Source: Macrococcoides canis
GTDB taxonomy: Bacteria > Bacillota > Bacilli > Staphylococcales > Staphylococcaceae
Direction of reading: 5' to 3'
Assembly (NCBI RefSeq): GCF_002119805.1
Contig: NZ_CP021059.1
Span: forward strand, 1,860,001 to 1,924,000
Length of the DNA: 64,000 bases
Made by a program: the position numbers and the translations under genes. Each line of letters starts with the position of its first letter. Position 1 is the first letter of the stretch. Below the pieces are notes generated by a model. It was not told the DNA's origin and ran no database searches. It saw only the letters and a list, made by a program, of their open reading frames with translations. Shown here piece by piece: positions 4,993 through 59,868 of the stretch.

Positions 4993-5124
4993 AATGTACT
5001 CCTTTTTTATTCTATGAATGTATTCATTATGTAATAGATTCCTTAAACTTTCAATGTATTTGTTGACAACACTGCATACACGTTCATAATAGTAAACGGA
5101 CAATAAATGGAAAGAAGGCAAATT

Positions 5125-6252
5125 ATGATCGCTTTAAAAGATAAAATTTCAATTCACAATGACCCATGGGAAGCCTACAATGACGTGGAGAAATTTGGTG
5201 AGACGAAGTTATCTAATATAGAATTTACGACGACAACGCTATGTAATATGCGATGTGCGCACTGTGCTGTCGGTTATACGCTGCAGCTCAAAGACCCTGA
5301 AACCATCGATATGACAACCATATTAAAGCGTCTAGATGAAGTCGAACACTTATCAACGCTAAGTATCACAGGTGGAGAACCGATGTTCTCTAAAAAATCT
5401 ATCAAAGAAACAGTGACACCGATACTTGAATATGCAAAGTCACGAGGCATCTATACGCAGATGAACTCAAACTTAACGATCAACTATGATCGATATGAAC
5501 CACTGATCGATTTAATTGATGTCATGCATATTTCTCATAACTGGGGCACAATCGATGAATTTGCAGAAGTTGGTTTCCATGTTATGGATAAGAAACCACC
5601 GCTAAAGATGCGCTATAAGCTATACGAACAAATTATCGAGAACGCACGACGCTTATCTGAAGCAGGAATGTTTGTCTCAGCTGAGACGATGTTAAATAAA
5701 AGCACGTTACCTTATTTGGAGAAAATCCATAAGGAAATCGTCAATGATATGAAATGCGCGCGACATGAAGTCCATCCGATGTACCCATCAGACTTCGCGA
5801 GCGACTTAAATGTATTGACGATAGAAGAAACGAAAGCTGCGATTAGACAGTTGTTATCATTTCGTGATGAGGATACGTGGATGTTGTTCGGTACGTTACC
5901 GATACTGCCATGTTCTATGAATGCAGATGACTTATCATTTTTAGATGAAGTCCATAGTGCAAAGAACGTCACAGTTCGTAATGACCCGGATGGGCGTTCA
6001 AGACTGAATGTTAACGTGTTTACCGGAGATGTTATCGTCACAGATTTTGGCGATGAAACAGGCACAATCGAGAATATTATCGATACGCCGCTCCAGGATG
6101 TATACGATAAGTGGAAACAGAGTGCTCTCAATCAGACGATTAACTGTCACTGCCCGAAAGTGAAATGTCTCGGTCCGAATCTACTCGTGAAGAACATGTA
6201 TTATCCTGAGGTCGACTTTAAAGTAAACGAAAAACGCATGAATAATAAATAA
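5125..6252 (+). CDS. Radical SAM protein, YfkAB-like (CxCxxxxC family)
   Basis: A radical SAM enzyme with the canonical CNMRCAHC cluster motif near residues 41-48, followed by the SITGGEP glycine motif. A second cysteine group near the C-terminus (CHCPKVKC) could hold an auxiliary Fe-S cluster. Its length (375 residues) and the two cysteine groups fit the YfkAB-type family, whose substrate is unknown. The start at 5125 was chosen over 5107 because AAGAAGG lies 6 nt upstream. It is transcribed divergently from the SE1561-rlmCD pair. Confidence 0.85.
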   Translation: MIALKDKISIHNDPWEAYNDVEKFGETKLSNIEFTTTTLCNMRCAHCAVGYTLQLKDPETIDMTTILKRLDEVEHLSTLSITGGEPMFSKKSIKETVTPILEYAKSRGIYTQMNSNLTINYDRYEPLIDLIDVMHISHNWGTIDEFAEVGFHVMDKKPPLKMRYKLYEQIIENARRLSEAGMFVSAETMLNKSTLPYLEKIHKEIVNDMKCARHEVHPMYPSDFASDLNVLTIEETKAAIRQLLSFRDEDTWMLFGTLPILPCSMNADDLSFLDEVHSAKNVTVRNDPDGRSRLNVNVFTGDVIVTDFGDETGTIENIIDTPLQDVYDKWKQSALNQTINCHCPKVKCLGPNLLVKNMYYPEVDFKVNEKRMNNK

Positions 6253-6295
6253 AAATATCACGTAAGGCTCTAACTGCCTTACGTGATATTTTTTG
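6253..6295 (+). terminator. Rho-independent terminator of the radical SAM gene
   Basis: A strong AATATCACGTAAGGC / GCCTTACGTGATATT stem with a 7-nt loop and a T-run, lying between the stop codon and the stem-loop repeat array. Confidence 0.92.
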
Positions 6296-6322: not shown

Positions 6323-6839
6323 CGAGTGGCCGCATTTCGGACACTCGACCCTAGTTTTGGACGCGAGTGGCCGTTTTTCGGACACTCGGTAGTATTTCGG
6401 GGCGCGAGTGGCCGTTTTTCGGACACTCGACCCTATTTCGGGGCGCGAGTGGCCGCTTTTCGGACATTCGACCCTATTTCAGGACGCGAGTGGCCGTTTT
6501 TCGGACACTCGACCCTATTTCAGGACGCGAGTGGCCGTTTTTCGGACACTCGACCCTATTTCGGGGCGCGAGTGGCCGCTTTTCGGACATTCGACCCTAT
6601 TTTTGGACGCGAGTGGCCGCTTTTCGGACATTCGACCCTATTTCGGGGCGCGAGTGGCCGCTTTTCGGACACTCGGTAGTATTTCGGGGCGCGAGTGGCC
6701 GCTTTTCGGACACTCGACCCTATTTCAGGACGCGAGTGGCCGCTTTTCGGACACTCGACCCTATTTTTGGGCGCGAGTGGCCGCTTTTCGGACACTCGAC
6801 CCTATTTCGGGGCGCGAGTGGCCGTTTTTCGGACACTCG
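6323..6839. repeat. Tandem array of 13 stem-loop units, 41-bp period (array 1)
   Basis: Thirteen units start exactly every 41 bp from 6323 to 6815 with no insertion or deletion. Each is a 25-bp stem-loop (arm CGAGTGGCCG, a 5-nt loop such as CTTTT or TTTTT, arm CGGACACTCG) plus a 16-bp linker such as ACCCTATTTCGGGGCG. A G/A mismatch at the seventh arm position is kept in all copies. Some units carry CATTCG in the right arm, which in plus-strand RNA still pairs as G-U. The array lies between a convergent pair and fills almost the whole gap. It is open in several frames only because of its base composition. Confidence 0.95.
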
Positions 6840-6860: not shown

Positions 6861-7379
6861 TTAAATCGTCAAGTTATTTGAGAAGAACTGATGCAGATCT
6901 TTACTCTTACTTCTACGATCTTTTCGTACTTTCGCGCGTTCTTTTCCGGTTTCATTCAGCCACACCTGATCTTCTGTTTCAGCAATAACCTCTGGCACCA
7001 TAACCGGCTGATTGTTCTCATCTAACGCAACAAACGTCAAGAAGCTGATTGCTGCCAGATGCTTTCTCTGTTCCAGTATATTCTCAGCAACAATCTTCAC
7101 ACAGACTTCTAATGAAGAAGTTCCTGTATACGTCACCAGTGCGACCATTGACACAATTTCTCCCGGTCTTATCGGCTGCAGGAAATCTACAGAATCCGTA
7201 CTAGCAGTGACGACTGATCTTCCGCAATGTCGTGTTGCTGCAATGCTCGCCACGTCATCAATCATTGCCATCAGCTTTCCACCAAATAAAGTATTATGAT
7301 GATTTGTATCTGACGGGAAGATCTGTTGTGTTTTTACAGTTCTAGATGCACTCATTGATTTTTTTAATCGTTCGCTCAT
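6861..7379 (-). CDS. Acyl-CoA thioesterase, hotdog fold
   Basis: A single-hotdog acyl-CoA thioester hydrolase of the cytosolic BACH/YciA type. The motif DTNHHNTLFGGKLMAMID contains the family NxxGxxFGG-like helix with the active-site Asp, followed by VDFLQPIRPGE. The C-terminal tail is basic (KVRKDRRSKSK). The start was placed at 7379 because the GGGGA site lies 7 nt upstream; the ATG at 7385 touches that site. No T-tailed terminator follows the stop codon; transcription runs straight into array 1. Confidence 0.88.
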   Translation of the reverse strand: MSERLKKSMSASRTVKTQQIFPSDTNHHNTLFGGKLMAMIDDVASIAATRHCGRSVVTASTDSVDFLQPIRPGEIVSMVALVTYTGTSSLEVCVKIVAENILEQRKHLAAISFLTFVALDENNQPVMVPEVIAETEDQVWLNETGKERAKVRKDRRSKSKDLHQFFSNNLTI

Positions 7380-7430
7380 ATTCATTCCCCATTCATATAT
7401 AGTCCACAATATTATATCAAAAAAAGAAAG

Positions 7431-11927: not shown

Positions 11928-12947
11928 TTATGCCTCCTCTAATGGCACTTTCACTTCTATACGAGTGCCTGACTGTGGTGCTGATATAATTTGAAATGTC
12001 CCGCCAATTTCGAGTGCTCGTTCTTTCATCGTATTAAGTCCATATCTTGAATCATCGACGCGCTCTACATCGAATCCTTTTCCGTCATCACTTAATCTGA
12101 GAATTACTTTATTCCCTGCTTTAAACAGTTCGATAACAATTTGTGTCGCTTCAGCGTGTCTTAACGTATTAGATATAGATTCCTGAGCGATTCTAAACAG
12201 ATGATCCTCCACACCTTTTTCGAGCTGTATGTCTTCGATATCAGATGTAATGTTTAGTGGTATCTTCTGTTTCAGTTCTTTTAATAGTTGCTGAATACCT
12301 TCTTCAAGTGTTCTGTTCTTCAGGCCAATTGGTCGTAAATGTAATAACAGTGCACGCATTTCAAGCTGCGTTTCTCGAAGCATCTTGTCCAGGAGTTCAA
12401 GCTGCGACTTCACTTTTTCTTCATGCGCACCTGATTTAAGTGCCGATAACATCATAGATGCTGCGAACAGTTGCTGACTTACTGAATCGTGCAGCTCACG
12501 AGCAAGTCGTTGTCGTTCTTCTTCCACGATTTGTTTCACTGTCTCTTCGTTTAATTTATGTACGTCGTTTGTAACGAGCTGATTCTGTCGTTTAATATTC
12601 GCCATTGATATACTTACTTCGTTAATGGCATGCAGTACGTCAATGACTTCAATGTTCTGATCGATTGCGGTATTGATCTGTACGCCTTCTTCAATCTGTT
12701 CGATTTCATTTTTAATGAGCATGAGCTGCTCATTCTGACGGTATGCAACGATTGACCCCATAATTATACAGGCCAGTATCACTGTTACATTTAAAAATAA
12801 AAAGGCAGGCACGCCGACAATTTGCGTATACAGCATCCCTTGAAAGTATATGATGTTGACGAATATGCGGTCTAATATAAAGAACACAATCGCTAAACTG
12901 TAAACGAGTATGAGCATCGTTCCGATCATCTTCGTATAATTGTTCAT
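11928..12947 (-). CDS. vraS: Sensor histidine kinase VraS
   Basis: A HPK7/NarX-type sensor kinase. Two N-terminal membrane helices (about 9-31 and 45-68) have a very short extracytoplasmic loop, typical of intramembrane-sensing kinases. His153 in [12 protein letters not shown] is the phosphorylated residue, and a HATPase domain follows with the G-box [10 protein letters not shown]. It overlaps vraT by 4 bp and is followed by vraR, forming the LiaFSR-like cell-envelope stress system. Confidence 0.95.
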
Positions 12948-13639
12948 CGGTACTGCACCTCGAGATCTCCGACGATTGAGGATACGAACAGTTTAATCTC
13001 AACACCGTTTGCATACTTCTCTGTTTCGTACACGACGCGTTCATTACGCGCTTTTTTTACATAATGCTCTTTAAAGTTGAGCTGTCCGTACAGCGTCGTG
13101 TAATCTACTTTCACCTGATAACGATGTGGTACGGTAATCGTCGTCTTACCGATTGCATTGCGAATCACGATGATATTCGTCTGCTTTAAGTTCGCTGCTT
13201 GTGTCAGATCAATATCCATATCACCGACAAAGTGCTGTAAGTTCATATCTTCAAACTTATATACTTTATCAGGTGTCGACTGAAAACTGAGCAGCGACTG
13301 CTTATAAATGGACATGCTGTTGTCATTCGTCTGGATGACTTTCATCGGATGCTTCTTATAGATAATATAACGGATTGCTACAATAACGATAAACAAGAAG
13401 ATGACAATTAAAGTATACGGATTAGACAGCGTTCCGAATAACAGCATAATAACGCCAATCCATAATATGATGAGTCCTCTTAAATTCTCTTTCATCATTG
13501 TGCTGAAGTATATCATGAGCAGTCCAGCGACAATGACGAGCAGCATTCCAATCTTTACGAAGAAGATATAATAAATGTTTGATAGTAGTATTAATGTGAA
13601 GAATGCGATTAACATTTCTGAATTCACAATTTGCTTCAA
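12944..13639 (-). CDS. vraT: VraT (LiaF/YvqF-like) cell-wall stress regulator protein
   Basis: A membrane protein with about four N-terminal helices (residues 7-95) and a cytoplasmic C-terminal domain of the LiaF/YvqF family (DMDIDLTQAANLKQTNIIVIRNAIGKTTITVP). It works with VraS to set kinase output under cell-wall inhibitors. The start is TTG at 13639, with AAGGA about 8 nt upstream; the first ATG would be nine codons in. It overlaps vraS by 4 bp. Confidence 0.9.
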   Translation of the reverse strand: MKQIVNSEMLIAFFTLILLSNIYYIFFVKIGMLLVIVAGLLMIYFSTMMKENLRGLIILWIGVIMLLFGTLSNPYTLIVIFLFIVIVAIRYIIYKKHPMKVIQTNDNSMSIYKQSLLSFQSTPDKVYKFEDMNLQHFVGDMDIDLTQAANLKQTNIIVIRNAIGKTTITVPHRYQVKVDYTTLYGQLNFKEHYVKKARNERVVYETEKYANGVEIKLFVSSIVGDLEVQYR

Positions 13640-14878: not shown

Positions 14879-14978
14879 TTAAGGATATGTATTGATTATA
14901 GTGTATAAATTCAATATCATATATTCATCACTGTTTATTATAACAGACTCAAACTATTACACAATTGGAATGATTATA

Positions 14979-15968
14979 ATGAAAATTAACTGGTTCAAGA
15001 AATTAATCGGTGCAAGAACAATTAAAACAGGTCTTGCAACATTTTTAACAGCACTCATCTGTCAATTACTAAACTTGCCTGCCATCTTTGCGGTAATTAC
15101 ATCGATCGTTTCAATTGAACCGACGGCACGTGCTTCCTTAAAGAAAGCATTCGTGAGATTTCCAGCATCGATTCTTGGTGCCTTTATCGCAGTGACAAGC
15201 ACATACTTTCTAGGGGACTCACCATTAAGTTATAGTATCGCTGCGACTGTGACAATCTTTGTCTGTTATAAATTGAAACTATACGACGGCCTACTCGTAG
15301 CAAGTCTTACCGCAGTAGCGATGGTACCAAACATCCATCAGGACTTTGCATTTAATTTCTTCTCCCGACTTGCGACGACGACGATTGGTCTGACAACTGC
15401 CGGTGTTGTCAATTTCTTCGTATTACCTCCGAAGTATCATGTACAGATTGCACAACTTCTTGATACACTTGAAACGAAGTTAATGACGATGTTGGCACTA
15501 CGCACAACAGAAATCAATTCGGGATTATCTGATTTAAGCGGAGTAATTCCAATGGTAGAAGAATCTAATAAATTGATTAGTAAGATAGATACTTTGCTGC
15601 AATATCAAAAAGAAGAACTACAGTTTCATGAAGACAAAGCGATTAAATATGAAATTACACAGTTAAAACATCGCCTCGATGTCAATCGCCTCATCCAGCT
15701 GCATGTGAACCAGATGATATTACTGCCAGACGGCACACATTTCACTTTAACCGATGATGAAAAAGAAGCTTTGAATCAATTAGTCTACGCATTTAAACAA
15801 TTTGGTGCAGACCGAACATACACTCCTGACAGAAAGTCGCTTAGTCTGCTAAAGATGAGTGTGAAGCATTTGACGGAATTTGATGATAACCAGATGCGCA
15901 GTCATTACATCTATGAAATATTGATGATTAACAGATTACTTATGGATCATCCGAATAAAGTAAAATAA
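14979..15968 (+). CDS. UPF0421/FUSC family membrane protein (aromatic acid exporter-like)
   Basis: The N-terminal half has several hydrophobic helices beginning IGARTIKTGLATFLTALICQ and a conserved VSIEPTARASLKKA loop. The C-terminal half is cytoplasmic and helical. This is the UPF0421 family, related to FUSC/aromatic acid exporters; the substrate is unknown. The start at 14979 (MKINWFKKLIG) aligns with staphylococcal homologues. A longer frame from 14892 would add a doubtful leader. The ribosome site is weak (GGA). Confidence 0.85.
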   Translation: MKINWFKKLIGARTIKTGLATFLTALICQLLNLPAIFAVITSIVSIEPTARASLKKAFVRFPASILGAFIAVTSTYFLGDSPLSYSIAATVTIFVCYKLKLYDGLLVASLTAVAMVPNIHQDFAFNFFSRLATTTIGLTTAGVVNFFVLPPKYHVQIAQLLDTLETKLMTMLALRTTEINSGLSDLSGVIPMVEESNKLISKIDTLLQYQKEELQFHEDKAIKYEITQLKHRLDVNRLIQLHVNQMILLPDGTHFTLTDDEKEALNQLVYAFKQFGADRTYTPDRKSLSLLKMSVKHLTEFDDNQMRSHYIYEILMINRLLMDHPNKVK

Positions 15969-15973
15969 AAAAG

Positions 15974-16005
15974 AAGGAACGCCTAGTTATAGGCGTTCCT
16001 TATTT
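15974..16005 (+). terminator. Rho-independent terminator of the UPF0421 gene
   Basis: An AAGGAACGCCTA / TAGGCGTTCCTT stem with a 4-nt loop, before the second repeat array. Confidence 0.9.
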
Positions 16006-16028: not shown

Positions 16029-16053
16029 TGAATGGCCGAGGGGTGGACATTCA
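16029..16053. repeat. Diverged single copy of the stem-loop unit
   Basis: Arms TGAATGGCCG and TGGACATTCA around a 5-nt loop AGGGG. Compared with the array consensus, two base pairs are replaced by other pairs (C-G to T-A and G-C to A-T), so pairing is kept although the sequence changed. The conserved G/A mismatch at arm position 7 is also kept. It is 64 bp before array 2 and out of phase with it. Confidence 0.75.
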
Positions 16054-16092
16054 TGGCTACCGTTTTTGTGTGCGTGTGCGGTTGTGCGTGTG

Positions 16093-16363
16093 CGAGTGGC
16101 CGGTAGGCGGACACTCGCCCACCTTTTTATACCCGAGTGGCCGGTAGGCGGACACTCGCGCTCTCTTTTATACTCGAGTGGCCGTTATGCGGACACTCGC
16201 CCATCTTTTTATACCCGAGTGGCCGTTATGCGGACACTCGCCCACCTTTTTATACCCGAGTGGCCGGTAGGCGGACACTCGCGCTCTCTTTTATACCCGA
16301 GTGGCCGTTATGCGGACACTCGCGCTCTCTTTTATACCCGAGTGGCCGGGTTGCGGACACTCG
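16093..16363. repeat. Tandem array of 7 stem-loop units, 41-bp period (array 2)
   Basis: Units start at 16093, 16134, 16175, 16216, 16257, 16298 and 16339, exactly 41 bp apart. Arms are CGAGTGGCCG and CGGACACTCG, identical to array 1. Loops (GTAGG, TTATG, GGTTG) and 16-bp linkers (CCCACCTTTTTATACC, CGCTCTCTTTTATACC) differ from array 1. A partial unit follows near 16380. It lies between convergent genes; the open frames through it are compositional. Confidence 0.95.
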
Positions 16364-16437: not shown

Positions 16438-17112
16438 TTATAGTCTTTCAAACAATACGTTATTCTCCAGATGCACATGCTGGAATGTCTCACGTTCAAG
16501 CATTGCTAATCGCTGATACACGACTCTGTATGTTCCGCATGCATCTACTGGTGGCGTGAAGTCATTTGTAATCTCGCGTAATCTTTTTAAAACTTCTCCT
16601 GCGCCATCATGCTCTGTTTCCAGCTCATCGATATGTGGCTGCAGTTGCTCACGTAATTCATCTGTCGGATTATCGCTATATTCAATAATGAGCGGGAATA
16701 CATTTTCATCTTCATCTTTCGTATGTTCGATCAATGCATCTCTTAATTTCATCACTAATGTTTTAACTTCGAGTAAATGCGGATGTCTCTCCCCATGTAC
16801 TTTCGCTACTTTCGTTACGTACGGCATCAAATTCTTGAATTCCTCTTCAAGTGGCTTATGGTATTTATTTTGAATGTAGTTGATTAAACTTCTGTTATCC
16901 AGGTATTGAACGTCTAAACCGTCCGTTGTCCCATTATCTAATCGATTAATTTCTTCAAGCAGCGCGTCGAGCGGTGCGCTTTTTTCATTTACCGCTTCAC
17001 TTAACGGAATATCTCCTCCACAGCAAAAATCAATTCGGTTGCTTCTGAATATATCTGCAGACTTAGGTAGTTGTTTAACGATTTCTGATACTTTCATATT
17101 TGCTGTAATCAT
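16438..17112 (-). CDS. scdA: Iron-sulfur cluster repair di-iron protein ScdA (RIC/YtfE family)
   Basis: A di-iron protein that restores Fe-S clusters damaged by nitric oxide or oxidants. The N-terminal ScdA_N domain has SADIFRSNRIDFCCGG with the Cys30-Cys31 pair; the C-terminal hemerythrin-like domain has spaced His/Glu ligands (HGERHPHLLEVK, HTKDEDENVFP, ELETEHDGAG). The start at 17112 lies 8 nt after GGAG; the codons at 17118 and 17121 are too close to it. A perfect palindrome upstream suggests NO-responsive control. No intrinsic terminator follows; the gene ends at array 2. Confidence 0.92.
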   Translation of the reverse strand: MITANMKVSEIVKQLPKSADIFRSNRIDFCCGGDIPLSEAVNEKSAPLDALLEEINRLDNGTTDGLDVQYLDNRSLINYIQNKYHKPLEEEFKNLMPYVTKVAKVHGERHPHLLEVKTLVMKLRDALIEHTKDEDENVFPLIIEYSDNPTDELREQLQPHIDELETEHDGAGEVLKRLREITNDFTPPVDACGTYRVVYQRLAMLERETFQHVHLENNVLFERL

Positions 17113-17147
17113 TATCATCACTCCGGTTTATTATTTAATACACTTTT

Positions 17148-43225: not shown

Positions 43226-43260
43226 AAAAAGGTCGAGACATCGTGTCTCGACCTTTTATT
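43226..43260 (+). terminator. Rho-independent terminator of putP
   Basis: An AAAAGGTCGAGACA / TGTCTCGACCTTTT stem with loop TCG, ending at the first unit of array 3. Confidence 0.92.
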
Positions 43261-43450
43261 GTTTCTGCACGTTCGGGCGGCCGGGCGTGCAAATTCTGAT
43301 GTTTCTGCACGTTCGAGCGGCCGGGCGTGCAGATTCCGCTGTTTCTGCACGTTCGGGCGGCCGGGCGTGCAAATTCTGATTTTTCTGCACGTTCGGGCGG
43401 CCGGGCGTGCAAATTCTGATATTTCTGCACGTTCGAGCTGTCGTATGTGC
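43261..43450. repeat. Tandem array of 5 stem-loop units, 40-bp period (array 3)
   Basis: Units start at 43267, 43307, 43347, 43387 and 43427, exactly 40 bp apart. Arms GCACGTTCGG and CCGGGCGTGC pair over 10 positions (two G-U in plus-strand RNA) around loop GCGG; the linker is 16 bp (such as AAATTCTGATGTTTCT). Sequence differs from arrays 1 and 2 but the build is the same. In the last unit several arm bases change, mostly retaining pairs. It lies between the convergent putP and camS genes. Confidence 0.93.
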
Positions 43451-43469
43451 AGATTAATATCAATCCTCA

Positions 43470-49600: not shown

Positions 49601-50250
49601 TATTCTACTGTCTGATCTTTCGGGTATAATCCAAGGTATTCTTCAAGCGTTATTTTCTTATTAAATATCTCTTGTGCAATCTTCGTGCCAACATATCGCA
49701 CGTGCCACGGCTCATACTGATACCCTGTAATATGTGTCTTACCTTCAGGATATCTGATGATAAAGCCATACTTATGTGCATTTTGTGCCAGCCATTCTCC
49801 TTCAGTCGTATCACCAAATGAAATTGTGAAATCTCTTGCTGACTCAACAGAACCGATGTCAAAAGCAAGTCCTGTCTGATGTTCAGAATGACCAGGACGC
49901 GCACTATATGTATCTGCATTTGCATCTTGCGCCTTATACGCTTTATAGAGCTTATCCTGCATTTGATAAGTGCGATAACCACTTCTTACAACGAGCGACT
50001 GCTTATCCTTCTTGGCATCTTTGATCATCTGATTCAATTTCATACGCGCATACCGATTCTCTCCAGGATTGAAATCAGCGGGCAGTCCGATTTTCTTATT
50101 AACAATCAATATATCGTTAACATATGTGACGCCACTACGTGTTATACGTTCATATTTCGGTGGTGCTACATATGTGTTTTTCTGTGTGACTACTTGTTCA
50201 TTCGAACAGGCAGCTAAACACAAAATAATGATGATGAGTAATTTCTTCAT
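49600..50250 (-). CDS. M15 family D-alanyl-D-alanine carboxypeptidase-like lipoprotein
   Basis: A VanY/DdcP-type zinc carboxypeptidase predicted to trim peptidoglycan stems. The signal peptide ends in lipobox L-A-A-Cys15. The zinc motif is SARPGHSEHQTGLAFDIG and the later ligand is WHVRY. It has 216 residues. It is followed by a terminator and preceded, with a 13-bp gap, by a close paralogue in the same direction, so the two arose by tandem duplication. Confidence 0.9.
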   Translation of the reverse strand: MKKLLIIIILCLAACSNEQVVTQKNTYVAPPKYERITRSGVTYVNDILIVNKKIGLPADFNPGENRYARMKLNQMIKDAKKDKQSLVVRSGYRTYQMQDKLYKAYKAQDANADTYSARPGHSEHQTGLAFDIGSVESARDFTISFGDTTEGEWLAQNAHKYGFIIRYPEGKTHITGYQYEPWHVRYVGTKIAQEIFNKKITLEEYLGLYPKDQTVE

Positions 50251-50263
50251 GCTGTTTAACCCC

Positions 50264-50947
50264 TTATTTTAAGCCGAGATATTCTTCTAATGTGAGGCCG
50301 CTTTCATAAACCTTCTCCGCTGTAGGCTTACCCAGATATCTTAAATGCCAAGGTTCATACTGATACCCCGTAATATCACTTTTCCCTTTCGGATATCGTA
50401 TAATGAAGCCATACTCATGGGCATGACTTTTCAGCCACTGGCCTTCTTTCGTATCTTCAAAAGATTCCATAAAATCATCAGAGCCTTCAATATTACCTAA
50501 ATCAAATGCAAGTCCCGTCTGATGTTCAGAATGACCAGGACGCGCACTGTACGTATCAGCTTTCTTCTGTCCGTCTCTTGCAACGTATTGATTATATAAT
50601 GAAGCTTGCGTCTCATAACTTCTAAAAGCACTGCGGAGTACAAGGTTCAATCCGTCTTCATTACCTGCAGCTATCAGCTCATTTAAATGCTGGTTCGCTG
50701 TCTGATCTACATCTGGATGATACGTTTCTGGAAGTTCGATATCTTTATTTACGATAAGAATTCCATCGATATACGTAATGCCATCCTTCACTTCTTTGTC
50801 ATGTGACTTTACTGCCTCTTGTTCTTTAACTTGTACCGTTTCTTTTTCATTATTCTTCGTTGTCTCTTTCGTTTCAACTGGGGGTTCATTTTCCTGGCAC
50901 GCAGTAAGCAATATTGCCGACAATAGTATTACAGATAATTTTCTCAT
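50264..50947 (-). CDS. M15 family D-alanyl-D-alanine carboxypeptidase-like lipoprotein (paralogue)
   Basis: Same family as the next gene downstream; the lipobox is L-T-A-Cys17, followed by a Glu/Lys-rich linker. The zinc motif SARPGHSEHQTGLAFDLG and WHLRYLG are present, as is the terminal EEYLGLK shared with its paralogue. The start at 50947 has AGAGG seven nt upstream; a frame from 50983 adds a non-signal leader. It has 227 residues. Confidence 0.9.
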   Translation of the reverse strand: MRKLSVILLSAILLTACQENEPPVETKETTKNNEKETVQVKEQEAVKSHDKEVKDGITYIDGILIVNKDIELPETYHPDVDQTANQHLNELIAAGNEDGLNLVLRSAFRSYETQASLYNQYVARDGQKKADTYSARPGHSEHQTGLAFDLGNIEGSDDFMESFEDTKEGQWLKSHAHEYGFIIRYPKGKSDITGYQYEPWHLRYLGKPTAEKVYESGLTLEEYLGLK

Positions 50948-57604: not shown

Positions 57605-58651
57605 ATGCTCTTAAATGAAGCGAAAATATTTATTACACAATACTATAAAGAACAAAATTTACCACTAGAAACATTGAAGCAGCGAATAGCCGCAATTGAA
57701 GAAGAAATTATACAGACCGGTACATATAAACATACATTTGAAGAACTCGAATACGGCGCACGTGTCGCATGGCGTAACAGTAATCGCTGTATCGGCAGAC
57801 TATTCTGGGATAAATTAAAGGTCATCGATAACAGACATATCGAAAGTGAAGCGGGATTTATCGAAGCAATTGAACATCATATCGACAGCGCGACAAACAG
57901 CGGCATGATCATACCGACAATTACAATATTTGCTGAAGCGAATAAACAGCACATCAAACTTTATAACGATCAGCTCATCCGCTACAGTGACGACCCGATA
58001 GTGCGTGAAACGAAAGCGATCATTGAACATACAGGGTATACAAATTTCGGTAAGTTCTTACCACTCCTGTACTCAATTGATGGAACCTTTAAGACACACG
58101 ATATCAACCCCGATATCATTAAAGAAGTCACTATCACGCATCCGGAACACGCAGCATTTAACGCGTTAAACCTCGCATGGTATGCAGTGCCGATTATCTC
58201 AAGCATGGACTTAAAAATCGGCGGACTCACATACCCGTTAGTGCCATTTAACGGCTGGTATATGGAAAGTGAAATCGCAAGTAGGAACTTCCTTGATGAC
58301 TACCGTTATAATAAGATGAAAGAAATCGCAGAAGCGCTCGGATTCGATACGACGACAACAGCAAGTTACTGGAGAGACAGAACCGTTGTTGAGATGAACT
58401 ATGCGGTATATCATTCATTCAAACAGCACGGTGTGTCGATTGTGGATCACTATACCGCAAGTAAACAGTTCCCACGCTTTGAACAAAATGAAGCAGATGA
58501 AGGCAGACGAGTAACCGGAGACTGGACATGGCTCATCCCACCAATCTCACCATCCATCGTGCATAACTTCCATAAAGGATATAAGAATATATACAACAAC
58601 CCGAATTTCTATTACAAGAAAAAGATGGGTAAATGCCCGTTTAGTACATAG
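57605..58651 (+). CDS. nos: Bacterial nitric oxide synthase oxygenase
   Basis: Makes NO from arginine; protects staphylococci against oxidative stress and affects respiration. The heme-thiolate Cys62 is in WRNSNRCIGR; the substrate Glu is in NGWYMESEIASR. The C-terminus WTWLIPPISPS carries the pterin-side Trp. It has 348 residues, no reductase domain, as in bacterial NOS. The start at 57605 has GAGGG 7 nt upstream; a start at 57593 would overlap the MFS stop. Confidence 0.95.
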   Translation: MLLNEAKIFITQYYKEQNLPLETLKQRIAAIEEEIIQTGTYKHTFEELEYGARVAWRNSNRCIGRLFWDKLKVIDNRHIESEAGFIEAIEHHIDSATNSGMIIPTITIFAEANKQHIKLYNDQLIRYSDDPIVRETKAIIEHTGYTNFGKFLPLLYSIDGTFKTHDINPDIIKEVTITHPEHAAFNALNLAWYAVPIISSMDLKIGGLTYPLVPFNGWYMESEIASRNFLDDYRYNKMKEIAEALGFDTTTTASYWRDRTVVEMNYAVYHSFKQHGVSIVDHYTASKQFPRFEQNEADEGRRVTGDWTWLIPPISPSIVHNFHKGYKNIYNNPNFYYKKKMGKCPFST

Positions 58652-58659
58652 AGAACAAT

Positions 58660-58706
58660 AAAAAGATAGCGAGAAAACATCGTTTCTCGCTATCTTTTTA
58701 TTTTTT
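58660..58706 (+). terminator. Rho-independent terminator of nos
   Basis: An AAAAAGATAGCGAGAAA / TTTCTCGCTATCTTTTT stem with a 6-nt loop; probably also serves the convergent beta-helix gene. Confidence 0.9.
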
Positions 58707-58734
58707 CCTAGTGTCTAGCCGCTCGTGTCACGAC

Positions 58735-59868
58735 CTATTTCTCCCCTACATTCTCCGTCGCCACTTCAATCACATCAAAGAAGTCATCTACCGCTTCTTT
58801 CTTAATATTATTCAGATTCTTATTTTGTGCACAGACAACGTGGGATGCGTGTCCTATTTTCACAGAGCATGCGTCGTTTTCAAAATCATTGTCGACGATA
58901 TAGATATCTTTATTTTTTGCGCCTTCATAGCTCTGGAATAGTATTGCATGTTTGGCTTGAATACCTTTAAATGTGTTTCGTCTAATCACTGTGAGCTCTC
59001 CAGCTTCTCCTTTATGCACATGGCCGGATAAGTCTGTCGTATACTTACCACTTTTTGTTGAACGGTAGCGAATACCTCCTGCACAGTCGATAAATTCGTT
59101 GTCATGGATATGCAGTACTTTCGATTTCAGGAATGTCAGCGCATAGTCGCCCATGCCTTCGAATGTATTGTTTCGCACTGTTATATTCTCATAGAATACA
59201 TCATGGTGGCTCGCATGTGAGCCGATTGCACGGTTCCACGGTTTCATAAGTGGATCGTTCGAATTCCCGAAATAGCAGTTTTCGATAATAACGTTTTTCG
59301 TCGGTGTTGCATCATATGCACCAAACTTCGGAAACGAGTCTTTCAGCTGCAGATCAATTTGTATTGCTTCACTGAATGCACGTTCTCCGCTGTCATCGCG
59401 GAATCCAAGAAACTTACATCGTGACACTTTAAATCCATCTAAGCCGCACGCATCGATGGCATGTCCTTGTACAACGTTTTTGAATGTAACGTCTTTAATC
59501 GTTATTTCTCGCGCATGTCCGAGTGACATGATGGTATTGTTAAAGTTCAGCACATGTCCGTTCTGGTTGAATGTGCCGCCTTCAATTGTAATGAAGCTGT
59601 TGCCATCATATCCTTTAAACTTATCGCCTTTATTGCCGTTTTTCAGCAGTGCAAACGGGCTCATCCTGATAATTTCTGCATCTTTATGCAGATGTAAATG
59701 TGTATGTTTATAGATCACGAGTTCTTTCGCGATATAATACTTTCCTTTTGGCACATAGACTTCAACCGGCTCTTTTTTAGCGACGTTCAGCGCTCTTTGA
59801 AATCCTATTGTATCTCTTATAATACTTTTGCCTTTTGCGCCGTAATTTAAAACATTTATCTTTATCAA
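58735..59868 (-). CDS. Right-handed parallel beta-helix (pectate lyase-like) protein
   Basis: A protein of about 377 residues with repeated beta-helix coils (IEGGTFNQNGHVLNF, IKDVTFKNVVQGHAID, VIIENCYFGNSNDP, ITVRNNTFEGMGDYAL, IRRNTFKGIQAK). The N-terminus INVLNYGAKGKSIIRDT resembles pectate lyase 3/GH28-like and phage spike openings. It has no signal peptide or anchor. The substrate is unknown. The start is uncertain: TTG at 59868 has AGGTG upstream; GTG at 59877 is the alternative. Confidence 0.8.
   Translation of the reverse strand: MIKINVLNYGAKGKSIIRDTIGFQRALNVAKKEPVEVYVPKGKYYIAKELVIYKHTHLHLHKDAEIIRMSPFALLKNGNKGDKFKGYDGNSFITIEGGTFNQNGHVLNFNNTIMSLGHAREITIKDVTFKNVVQGHAIDACGLDGFKVSRCKFLGFRDDSGERAFSEAIQIDLQLKDSFPKFGAYDATPTKNVIIENCYFGNSNDPLMKPWNRAIGSHASHHDVFYENITVRNNTFEGMGDYALTFLKSKVLHIHDNEFIDCAGGIRYRSTKSGKYTTDLSGHVHKGEAGELTVIRRNTFKGIQAKHAILFQSYEGAKNKDIYIVDNDFENDACSVKIGHASHVVCAQNKNLNNIKKEAVDDFFDVIEVATENVGEK

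Follow-up and report, generated by a model that had tools for sequence, protein, structure and literature searches.

A diverged palindrome unit beside an intergenic tandem array in Macrococcoides canis, and the repeat periods of unrelated intergenic arrays in its relatives

Intergenic tandem repeats of unrelated families in Macrococcoides canis and its relatives mostly have periods at 4, 5 or 6 turns of the DNA helix, and a diverged palindrome at 16029-16053 of the window belongs to one of these families. Our preferred reading, to which we give somewhat less than an even chance, is that this unit is the old first member of an intergenic tandem-array family acting as double-stranded DNA architecture at the 3' ends of genes. 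More tentatively, the unrelated units may be held at whole turns (10.5 n - 1.4 bp) and may thus provide one-sided phased DNA at gene ends, with the place conserved and the sequence replaced. A double-stranded DNA element whose helix phase matters is the most economical reading of the observations below, from which we infer a function of the arrays in DNA shaping. The main rival is that the mutation process itself gives whole-turn units.

The window is the whole stretch of DNA that was analysed, 64,000 nucleotides corresponding to C1:1860001-1924000 of a single-contig genome (G000) of 2,363,414 bases. The arrays, genes and terminator-like hairpins discussed here are located in the window as follows:

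5107-6252, plus strand: radical SAM / YfkB-like gene, left of array 1
6251-6293, both strands: intrinsic-terminator-like hairpin beside array 1, from a scan
6323-6839, plus strand: array 1, thirteen units of the family of array 2 (F1), period 41, with other loops and linkers
6861-7409, minus strand: 4HBT thioesterase gene, right of array 1, convergent
14892-15968, plus strand: gene of an ArAE_1/FUSC family membrane protein, left of array 2
15974-16001, minus strand: intrinsic-terminator-like hairpin adjoining the FUSC-like gene, from a sequence scan
16029-16053, plus strand: the anchor, a diverged palindrome unit of 25 nt, TGAATGGCCG-AGGGG-TGGACATTCA, from the sequence and from orthologues in relatives
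16093-16363, plus strand: array 2, with seven palindrome units of 25 nt separated by 16-nt linkers (period 41), from the sequence; units start at 16093, 16134, 16175, 16216, 16257, 16298 and 16339
16438-17121, minus strand: ScdA-like gene (ScdA_N and hemerythrin), right of array 2, convergent
43260-43459, no strand assigned: array 3, an unrelated palindrome TGCACG..CGTGCA, period 40 (Tandem Repeats Finder, 43260-43435)

The convergent genes on either side of array 3 encode an SSF symporter and a CamS lipoprotein. The ScdA-like gene beside array 2 presumably has an iron-sulfur repair role. Elsewhere in the window, 134 bp are shared at 73% identity between 49688-49821 and 50331-50464, 643 bp apart in neighbouring ORFs, a resemblance that probably reflects a tandem gene duplication.

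The diverged unit and the F1 palindrome family

The preliminary description of a diverged unit beside array 2 was accurate, as the sequence at 16029-16053 and the seven units of the array are as it gave them. The anchor stands 64 bp before the first array unit, after which the spacing is a regular 41 bp; the longer first step is due to a GTGTGCG-type low-complexity stretch at 16063-16092, which is gapped in two aligned relatives. The anchor departs from the array-2 unit CGAGTGGCCG GTAGG CGGACACTCG at five arm positions (1, 4, 16, 22 and 25) and three loop positions (11-13). Both partners have changed in pairs 1-25 and 4-22, which bears out the earlier claim of two such pairs, and pair 10-16, absent from that description, goes from G-C in the array unit to G.T in the anchor. 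Position 7 is G.A in both.

A chance match of the diverged copy is ruled out. With up to three mismatches, the 25-nt pattern has 79 forward and 77 reverse matches genome-wide, compared with none for the reversed control pattern; the reverse matches, among those listed, are mostly the same near-palindromes on the other strand. With at most one mismatch there are 66 forward and 10 reverse matches, and their sum of 76 equals the number of F1 units extracted. Each counted once, these units make seven arrays of 41-bp period in the 2.36-Mb chromosome, starting at 560,997 on the minus strand and at 1,712,979, 1,766,432, 1,823,757, 1,866,324 (array 1), 1,876,030 (array 2) and 1,948,362 on the plus strand, a count that covers near variants of the search pattern, since more distant ones would escape it. 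Identity between the seven arrays is 96% in the arms, 52% in the linkers and 30% in the loops. Array 2 thus has the arms of array 1 with other loops and linkers, and the stem is the conserved part, both as had been proposed. Units are homogenised inside each array and differ between loci. Outside the genus, a single F1-like match (GAGTGGCCGGTAAATGGTCACTC) with at most one mismatch is found at G024:C2:18401, in one of 72 genomes of other genera in the bacterial family. A solo unit of the F1 family in G001 (L046, G001:C1:1843179) is by eye a perfect bidirectional terminator, with an A-tract, a stem and a T-tract, and it is possible that F1 units descend from such a solo unit.

Orthologous sites give the anchor an age. 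The closest named relative, judged by the window protein at 12944-13639 (96% identity), is Macrococcoides caseolyticum DSM 20597. Between the FUSC-like and ScdA-like genes of G008 (L052/L067) we found TGAATGGCCG-AGGAT-TGGCCACTCA, orthologous to 16029-16053, followed 41 bp on by an array of another unit (CGGGTGTCAC...). In DSM 20597 (L056) the anchor is one base shorter (TGAATGCCGAGGATTGGCCACTCA) and is accompanied by one further unit, and the flanking ATATTATAT is shared as well. Because the orthologous copies occupy a shared site, the anchor is older than the split of these strains, and we rejected the idea that it is a mutated array-2 unit. It is judged from these alignments to be an old first member of the family, predating the split, and no recent derivative of array 2; array 2 beside it is, on the same comparison, judged to have been replaced or homogenised since. 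Some other arrays likewise start or finish with a diverged unit. At the FUSC/ScdA site, six of the seven named relatives (L057-L062) have 45-96 bp of intergenic DNA with no array visible.

Turnover is also seen at the radical SAM / thioesterase site, which holds 13 F1 units in G000, nine in G001, six in G008 and two in DSM 20597, and at which Macrococcus sp. DPC7161 (L062:17001-17401) has an unrelated palindrome array, also of period 41, orthologous in position to array 1. These comparisons indicate that array places persist in part of the genus while sequences are replaced and the period stays. They also bear on the rival that the arrays are neutral or selfish tandem repeats with no host function, produced by slippage near terminators, with symmetry from template switching and a mutation process favouring whole turns, a rival that we consider unlikely but take seriously. 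Loci whose flanks match can differ greatly in copy number, as at the 1713-kb locus (13 units in G000 and one in G004 and in G008, the left flank matched by eye), which agrees with such a process, as do the homogeneity inside arrays and the differences between loci.

Pairing, covariation and length of the F1 unit

Covariation was assessed on 168 F1 units (84 distinct) from 24 loci in G000, G001, G008, G004 and DSM 20597, the rows of G004 and of DSM 20597 coming from different loci; 38 representatives of these, 35 of them distinct, were tested against 500 shuffles. The compensatory changes proposed for the anchor stand in part. Among the 35 distinct units the stem register is strong, with 79.7% of cells paired compared with at most 41.4% when the register is slid, but the covariation signal over genomic copies is weak and hardly above the shuffles (0.173 compared with 0.146 ± 0.015, with 18 of 500 reaching the observed score). 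Pairs changed on both sides number four, compared with 4.3 in the shuffles, 445 of which reach the observed value. Pair 1-25 is unpaired in 18 of the 35 units, C.A in 17 of those, and gives no signal when tested singly (p = 0.14); pair 10-16 is without constraint. Pair 4-22 (G-C in 21 units, G.T in nine, A-T in four and A.C in one; Fisher p = 0.052) gives a suggestive signal. The best-kept sequence of the F1 family is the stem, but the claim of covariation is not established. A clearer compensatory pair than that of the array unit is seen in the terminator-like hairpin at 15974-16001, where the inner pair is C-G here and T-A in G008 and DSM 20597.

Pair 4 is A.C in the orthologues of the anchor in both G008 and DSM 20597, so that pair 4-22 probably went through an intermediate, its two sides changing separately as A-T was reached or lost. 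The available text of PMC8794818 documents template switching, a point in favour of neutral repeats, and states that a single such event can change both sides with no selection on RNA; even a stronger covariation alone would therefore not prove an RNA. The reading in which transcribed arrays form 3'-UTR hairpins that block 3' exonucleases or end transcription, the stem being kept as RNA, seems improbable to us. The frequent G.T at pair 4 would suit it, but the weak covariation speaks against it. We also tried wobble pairs as an indicator of the strand and rejected them, as pair 4 has G.T at 11 loci compared with A.C at two, but pair 1 has C.A at 20 compared with T.G at eight.

The mismatch at position 7 was said to be kept, and this holds for the anchor, array 2 and all 76 units found in G000, but not for the relatives: among the 35 distinct units, 20 have G.A at pair 7-19, 11 have T-A and one has G-C, and across the 24 loci T-A units occur at 10 and G-C at one. 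The constancy in G000 argues against neutral repeats, as template switching should repair the mismatch. Among the 38 representatives, conservation is complete or at least 90% at many arm bases (G2, T5, G6, C8, G17-A21, T23 and C24). This conservation would suit arrays of operators, in which each palindrome is the site of a dimeric DNA-binding protein and phasing brings the stacked sites onto a single helix face, and side-by-side binding would suit strict phasing as well. We nevertheless regard operator arrays as a distinctly improbable reading, as the arms of lattice families are unrelated, even where the position is orthologous (L062 at the radical SAM / thioesterase locus).

The length of the unit is kept more strictly than its sequence. 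Spacing between F1 units is exactly 41 bp in 141 of 144 cases, a set that excludes the DSM 20597 anchor with its missing base, and the exceptions are 42, 64 and 81 bp, the last of which contains one further unit with a shorter loop. Across 18 array consensuses, a minimum spanning tree has 135 substitutions and no change of period. Neighbouring intergenic DNA (65 alignments, each of at least 800 bp) has 397 gap openings per 4,597 substitutions, or 0.086 per substitution, a ratio that predicts about 6 to 12 indels for the tree. The absence of any period change despite this expectation shows that unit length is kept, and a unit length without indels although the linkers drift is a second point against neutral repeats.

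Periods of intergenic repeats

The sample consisted of 864 kb of G000 (the window and forty 20-kb stretches) and 1.74 Mb of relatives (400 kb each of G001 and G008, 200 kb each of G002, G005, G006 and G007, and 145 kb at seven named loci), in which 1,219 intergenic regions of 60-1,500 bp were scanned for direct repeats with a score of at least 16. Such a repeat was found in 61 regions, and in one after a single shuffle of each region. We kept the 40 regions with lags of 18-70 bp and dropped seven with lags below 18 bp and 14 with lags above 70 bp; the 14 comprise two at 81 bp that are tRNA gene clusters, one each at 84 and 106 bp, and ten at 118-124 bp, mostly another element. A second dispersed element of about 105-120 bp, grouped by eye, has GTGACACGAGCGTT-like ends flanking a long stem with a terminator inside it; its direct repeats are spaced by 118-124 bp, and one site has 2.9 perfect 119-bp copies. 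It is seen in the window at 2656-2794 (the least alike) and 58617-58742, at L105:13471-13816, and in L080, L165, L166, L082 and L107.

Periods of 32 of the 40 regions fall on a lattice of 40 (three regions), 41 (12), 50 (one), 51 (two), 61 (two) and 62 bp (12), with repeat scores from 19 to 613. The eight off-lattice lags (21, 28, 30, 33, 36, 44, 46 and 52 bp) have scores of at most 21.5, and the region assigned a lag of 36 has its best lag at 121. Tandem Repeats Finder places 30 of 32 non-coding rows of period 18-70 on the lattice, the others being at 24 and 33 bp. Inside called genes, all 14 arrays have periods that are multiples of three, a split between coding and non-coding that is partly circular because the gene caller dropped ORFs over arrays whose period is not such a multiple. 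Among the lattice periods, 51 is a multiple of three and 40, 41, 50, 61 and 62 are not. A protein-coding repeat was rejected for F1 since its period of 41 is not a multiple of three, and a CRISPR array was rejected since the linkers are alike within each array and are not unique spacers.

By blastn, on which the independence of the families rests, the 32 regions make 17 families, or 16 if two similar 61-bp ones are joined; our labels F1-F17 keep F3 and F4 apart although blastn unites them, and give one label to two 61-bp arrays that are separate families in blastn. Over families the Rayleigh R is 0.95. With the helical repeat left free, none of 20,000 uniform draws reaches the maximum, the null being maximised on a coarser grid of helical repeats than the observed value; a null barring multiples of three, on an equal grid, gives 0 of 2,000 with the helical repeat free and 0 of 20,000 at 10.5 bp. 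The periods fit 10.50 n - 1.38 bp at 4, 5 or 6 helical turns. R is 0.91 at 10.0 bp, 0.94-0.96 at 10.25-10.6 and 0.93 at 11.0, and being at least 0.91 over this whole range it fixes the helical repeat itself loosely. We note that the lattice was noticed post hoc, and that three window arrays and two named-locus arrays among the 32 are not random picks; the 13 families left when window and named loci are taken out give an R of 0.96 at 10.5 bp. A 40-bp repeat of 2.0 copies at L106:8908 is not counted in the 32.

A length rule in the mutation process would yield the same lattice. We know of no slippage rule that yields whole helical turns, which counts against neutral repeats. Staphylococcus aureus offers a comparison: the available text of PMC2825195 gives unit sizes of 55-58 bp for STAR elements and of 64 and 67 bp for other intergenic VNTRs, and eight such sizes, five of them from STAR loci, have an R of 0.77, which is not a clean negative for the lattice.

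Hairpins do not define these repeats. When 20 arrays, one or two per family label, were folded with 60 shuffles, eleven of the labels F1-F17 had hairpins beyond nearly all shuffles (none or one of 60 as good) and F8 was borderline (three of 60). Hairpins in F3, F4, F5, F11 and F14 were not clearly above the shuffles, yet these families are on the same lattice, so the class is defined by its spacing and the stem is not common to all. Families of this kind speak against hairpins acting as RNA, as does the lack of an RNA-based reason for steps of 10.5 bp. The ten labels of 40-51 bp have helically phased AA/TT steps (p = 7e-4, or 0.0014 with F3 and F4 joined), where neighbouring harmonics give p = 0.48-0.95. 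Such phasing is absent from four families of 61-62 bp (p = 0.40; one neighbouring harmonic 0.02). These family p values are geometric means and approximate, with three two-copy families left out.

Location, terminators and possible roles

Lattice arrays are found at the 3' ends of genes and reach their highest density between convergent ones, occupying 18 of 173 convergent, 14 of 748 tandem and none of 298 divergent gaps (p = 2e-8 for convergent against the rest); single gap assignments may be wrong, as the gene calls come from a custom script. The enrichment could be mere avoidance of promoters. The empty divergent gaps are a further point against operator arrays, and the 3'-end position is what 3'-UTR hairpins would lead one to expect.

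Terminators give a mixed picture of the RNA-level reading. Arrays 1, 2 and 3 are all placed between terminators beside the plus-strand gene and the stop of the minus-strand gene, and at each of them the array is reached before the minus-strand terminator when one starts from the minus-strand gene; left of array 2, the terminator scan makes calls on both strands. These placements and the terminator-like solo unit of L046 favour RNA hairpins. Against them, the order of array and terminators is mixed among 11 loci and gives no consistent transcript context. A search for intrinsic terminators (a GC stem and an immediate T-run) gave three weak plus-strand matches in array 2 and none in array 1, and none of 4,227 Rfam models matched the window at gathering score.

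The seven F1 arrays of G000 share one orientation relative to replication (a DnaA domain lies at 431-916 of the contig), as does an eighth in G001 (L128), on the assumption that the terminus is roughly opposite dnaA. Of 24 loci, 21 have the more stable DNA hairpin of F1 on that strand, one is a tie and two show the opposite. The shared orientation counts for the preferred reading as well as for neutral repeats, this difference favours neutral repeats, and the strand-specific stability fits a model of slippage on the nascent lagging strand.

Under the preferred reading of double-stranded DNA architecture, repeats at whole helical turns would put equal features on one face of the helix, where phased palindromes and AT tracts would either bend or writhe the DNA or line up sites along one side of it. 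A non-specific partner such as gyrase, HU or similar would bind those sites, and the array would then take up or pin supercoils from transcription, much as BIMEs are thought to do. We guess at such a BIME-like role in supercoil handling by reasoning from where the arrays lie and from known REP biology, in which REP, BIME and RIB elements are bound by gyrase, HU and IHF. The arrays would grow and homogenise by replication slippage starting at the old anchor unit, and the symmetry of the arms would be upheld by selection, by template switching, or by both.

REP and BIME elements resemble the arrays in being stem-mismatched palindromes located, according to the available text of PMC3733652, mostly between convergent and co-directional genes. 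They differ in that the arrays here have direct units, and in that several unrelated families per genome share one length lattice. Mobile palindromes of the REP/RAYT type, moved by a Y1 (HUH) transposase, would account for a dispersed, intergenic palindrome with an internal mismatch at gene 3' ends, but are highly improbable here: units within an array are direct and not inverted repeats, and Y1_Tnp (PF01797) is found in one of nine genomes of the genus, on contig C2 of G008, and not in G000. STAR elements of S. aureus are likewise intergenic tandem repeats with locus-specific spacers, variable copy number and unknown function, as far as the available text of PMC3532100 describes them. Their 14-bp signature with TGTTGnGGCCC, however, has no match in the window even with one mismatch, and their locations differ between species in the same text, whereas F1 sites are common to relatives. 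Bidirectional intrinsic terminators occupy the same place between convergent genes, and the solo unit of L046 has, by eye, A- and T-tracts on both sides as they do, but most array units in the window lack an adjacent T-run and separate terminators adjoin the arrays. Among the titles seen in the open-licence literature, none concerned Macrococcus intergenic or helically phased repeat arrays.

Double arm changes in hairpins of this kind are poor evidence for a functional RNA. If the preferred reading of phased double-stranded DNA is true, the genus would have a bacterial DNA element recognised by helix spacing and not by sequence, across unrelated repeat families, and the function of REP, BIME and STAR arrays would become directly testable by a half-turn phase shift.
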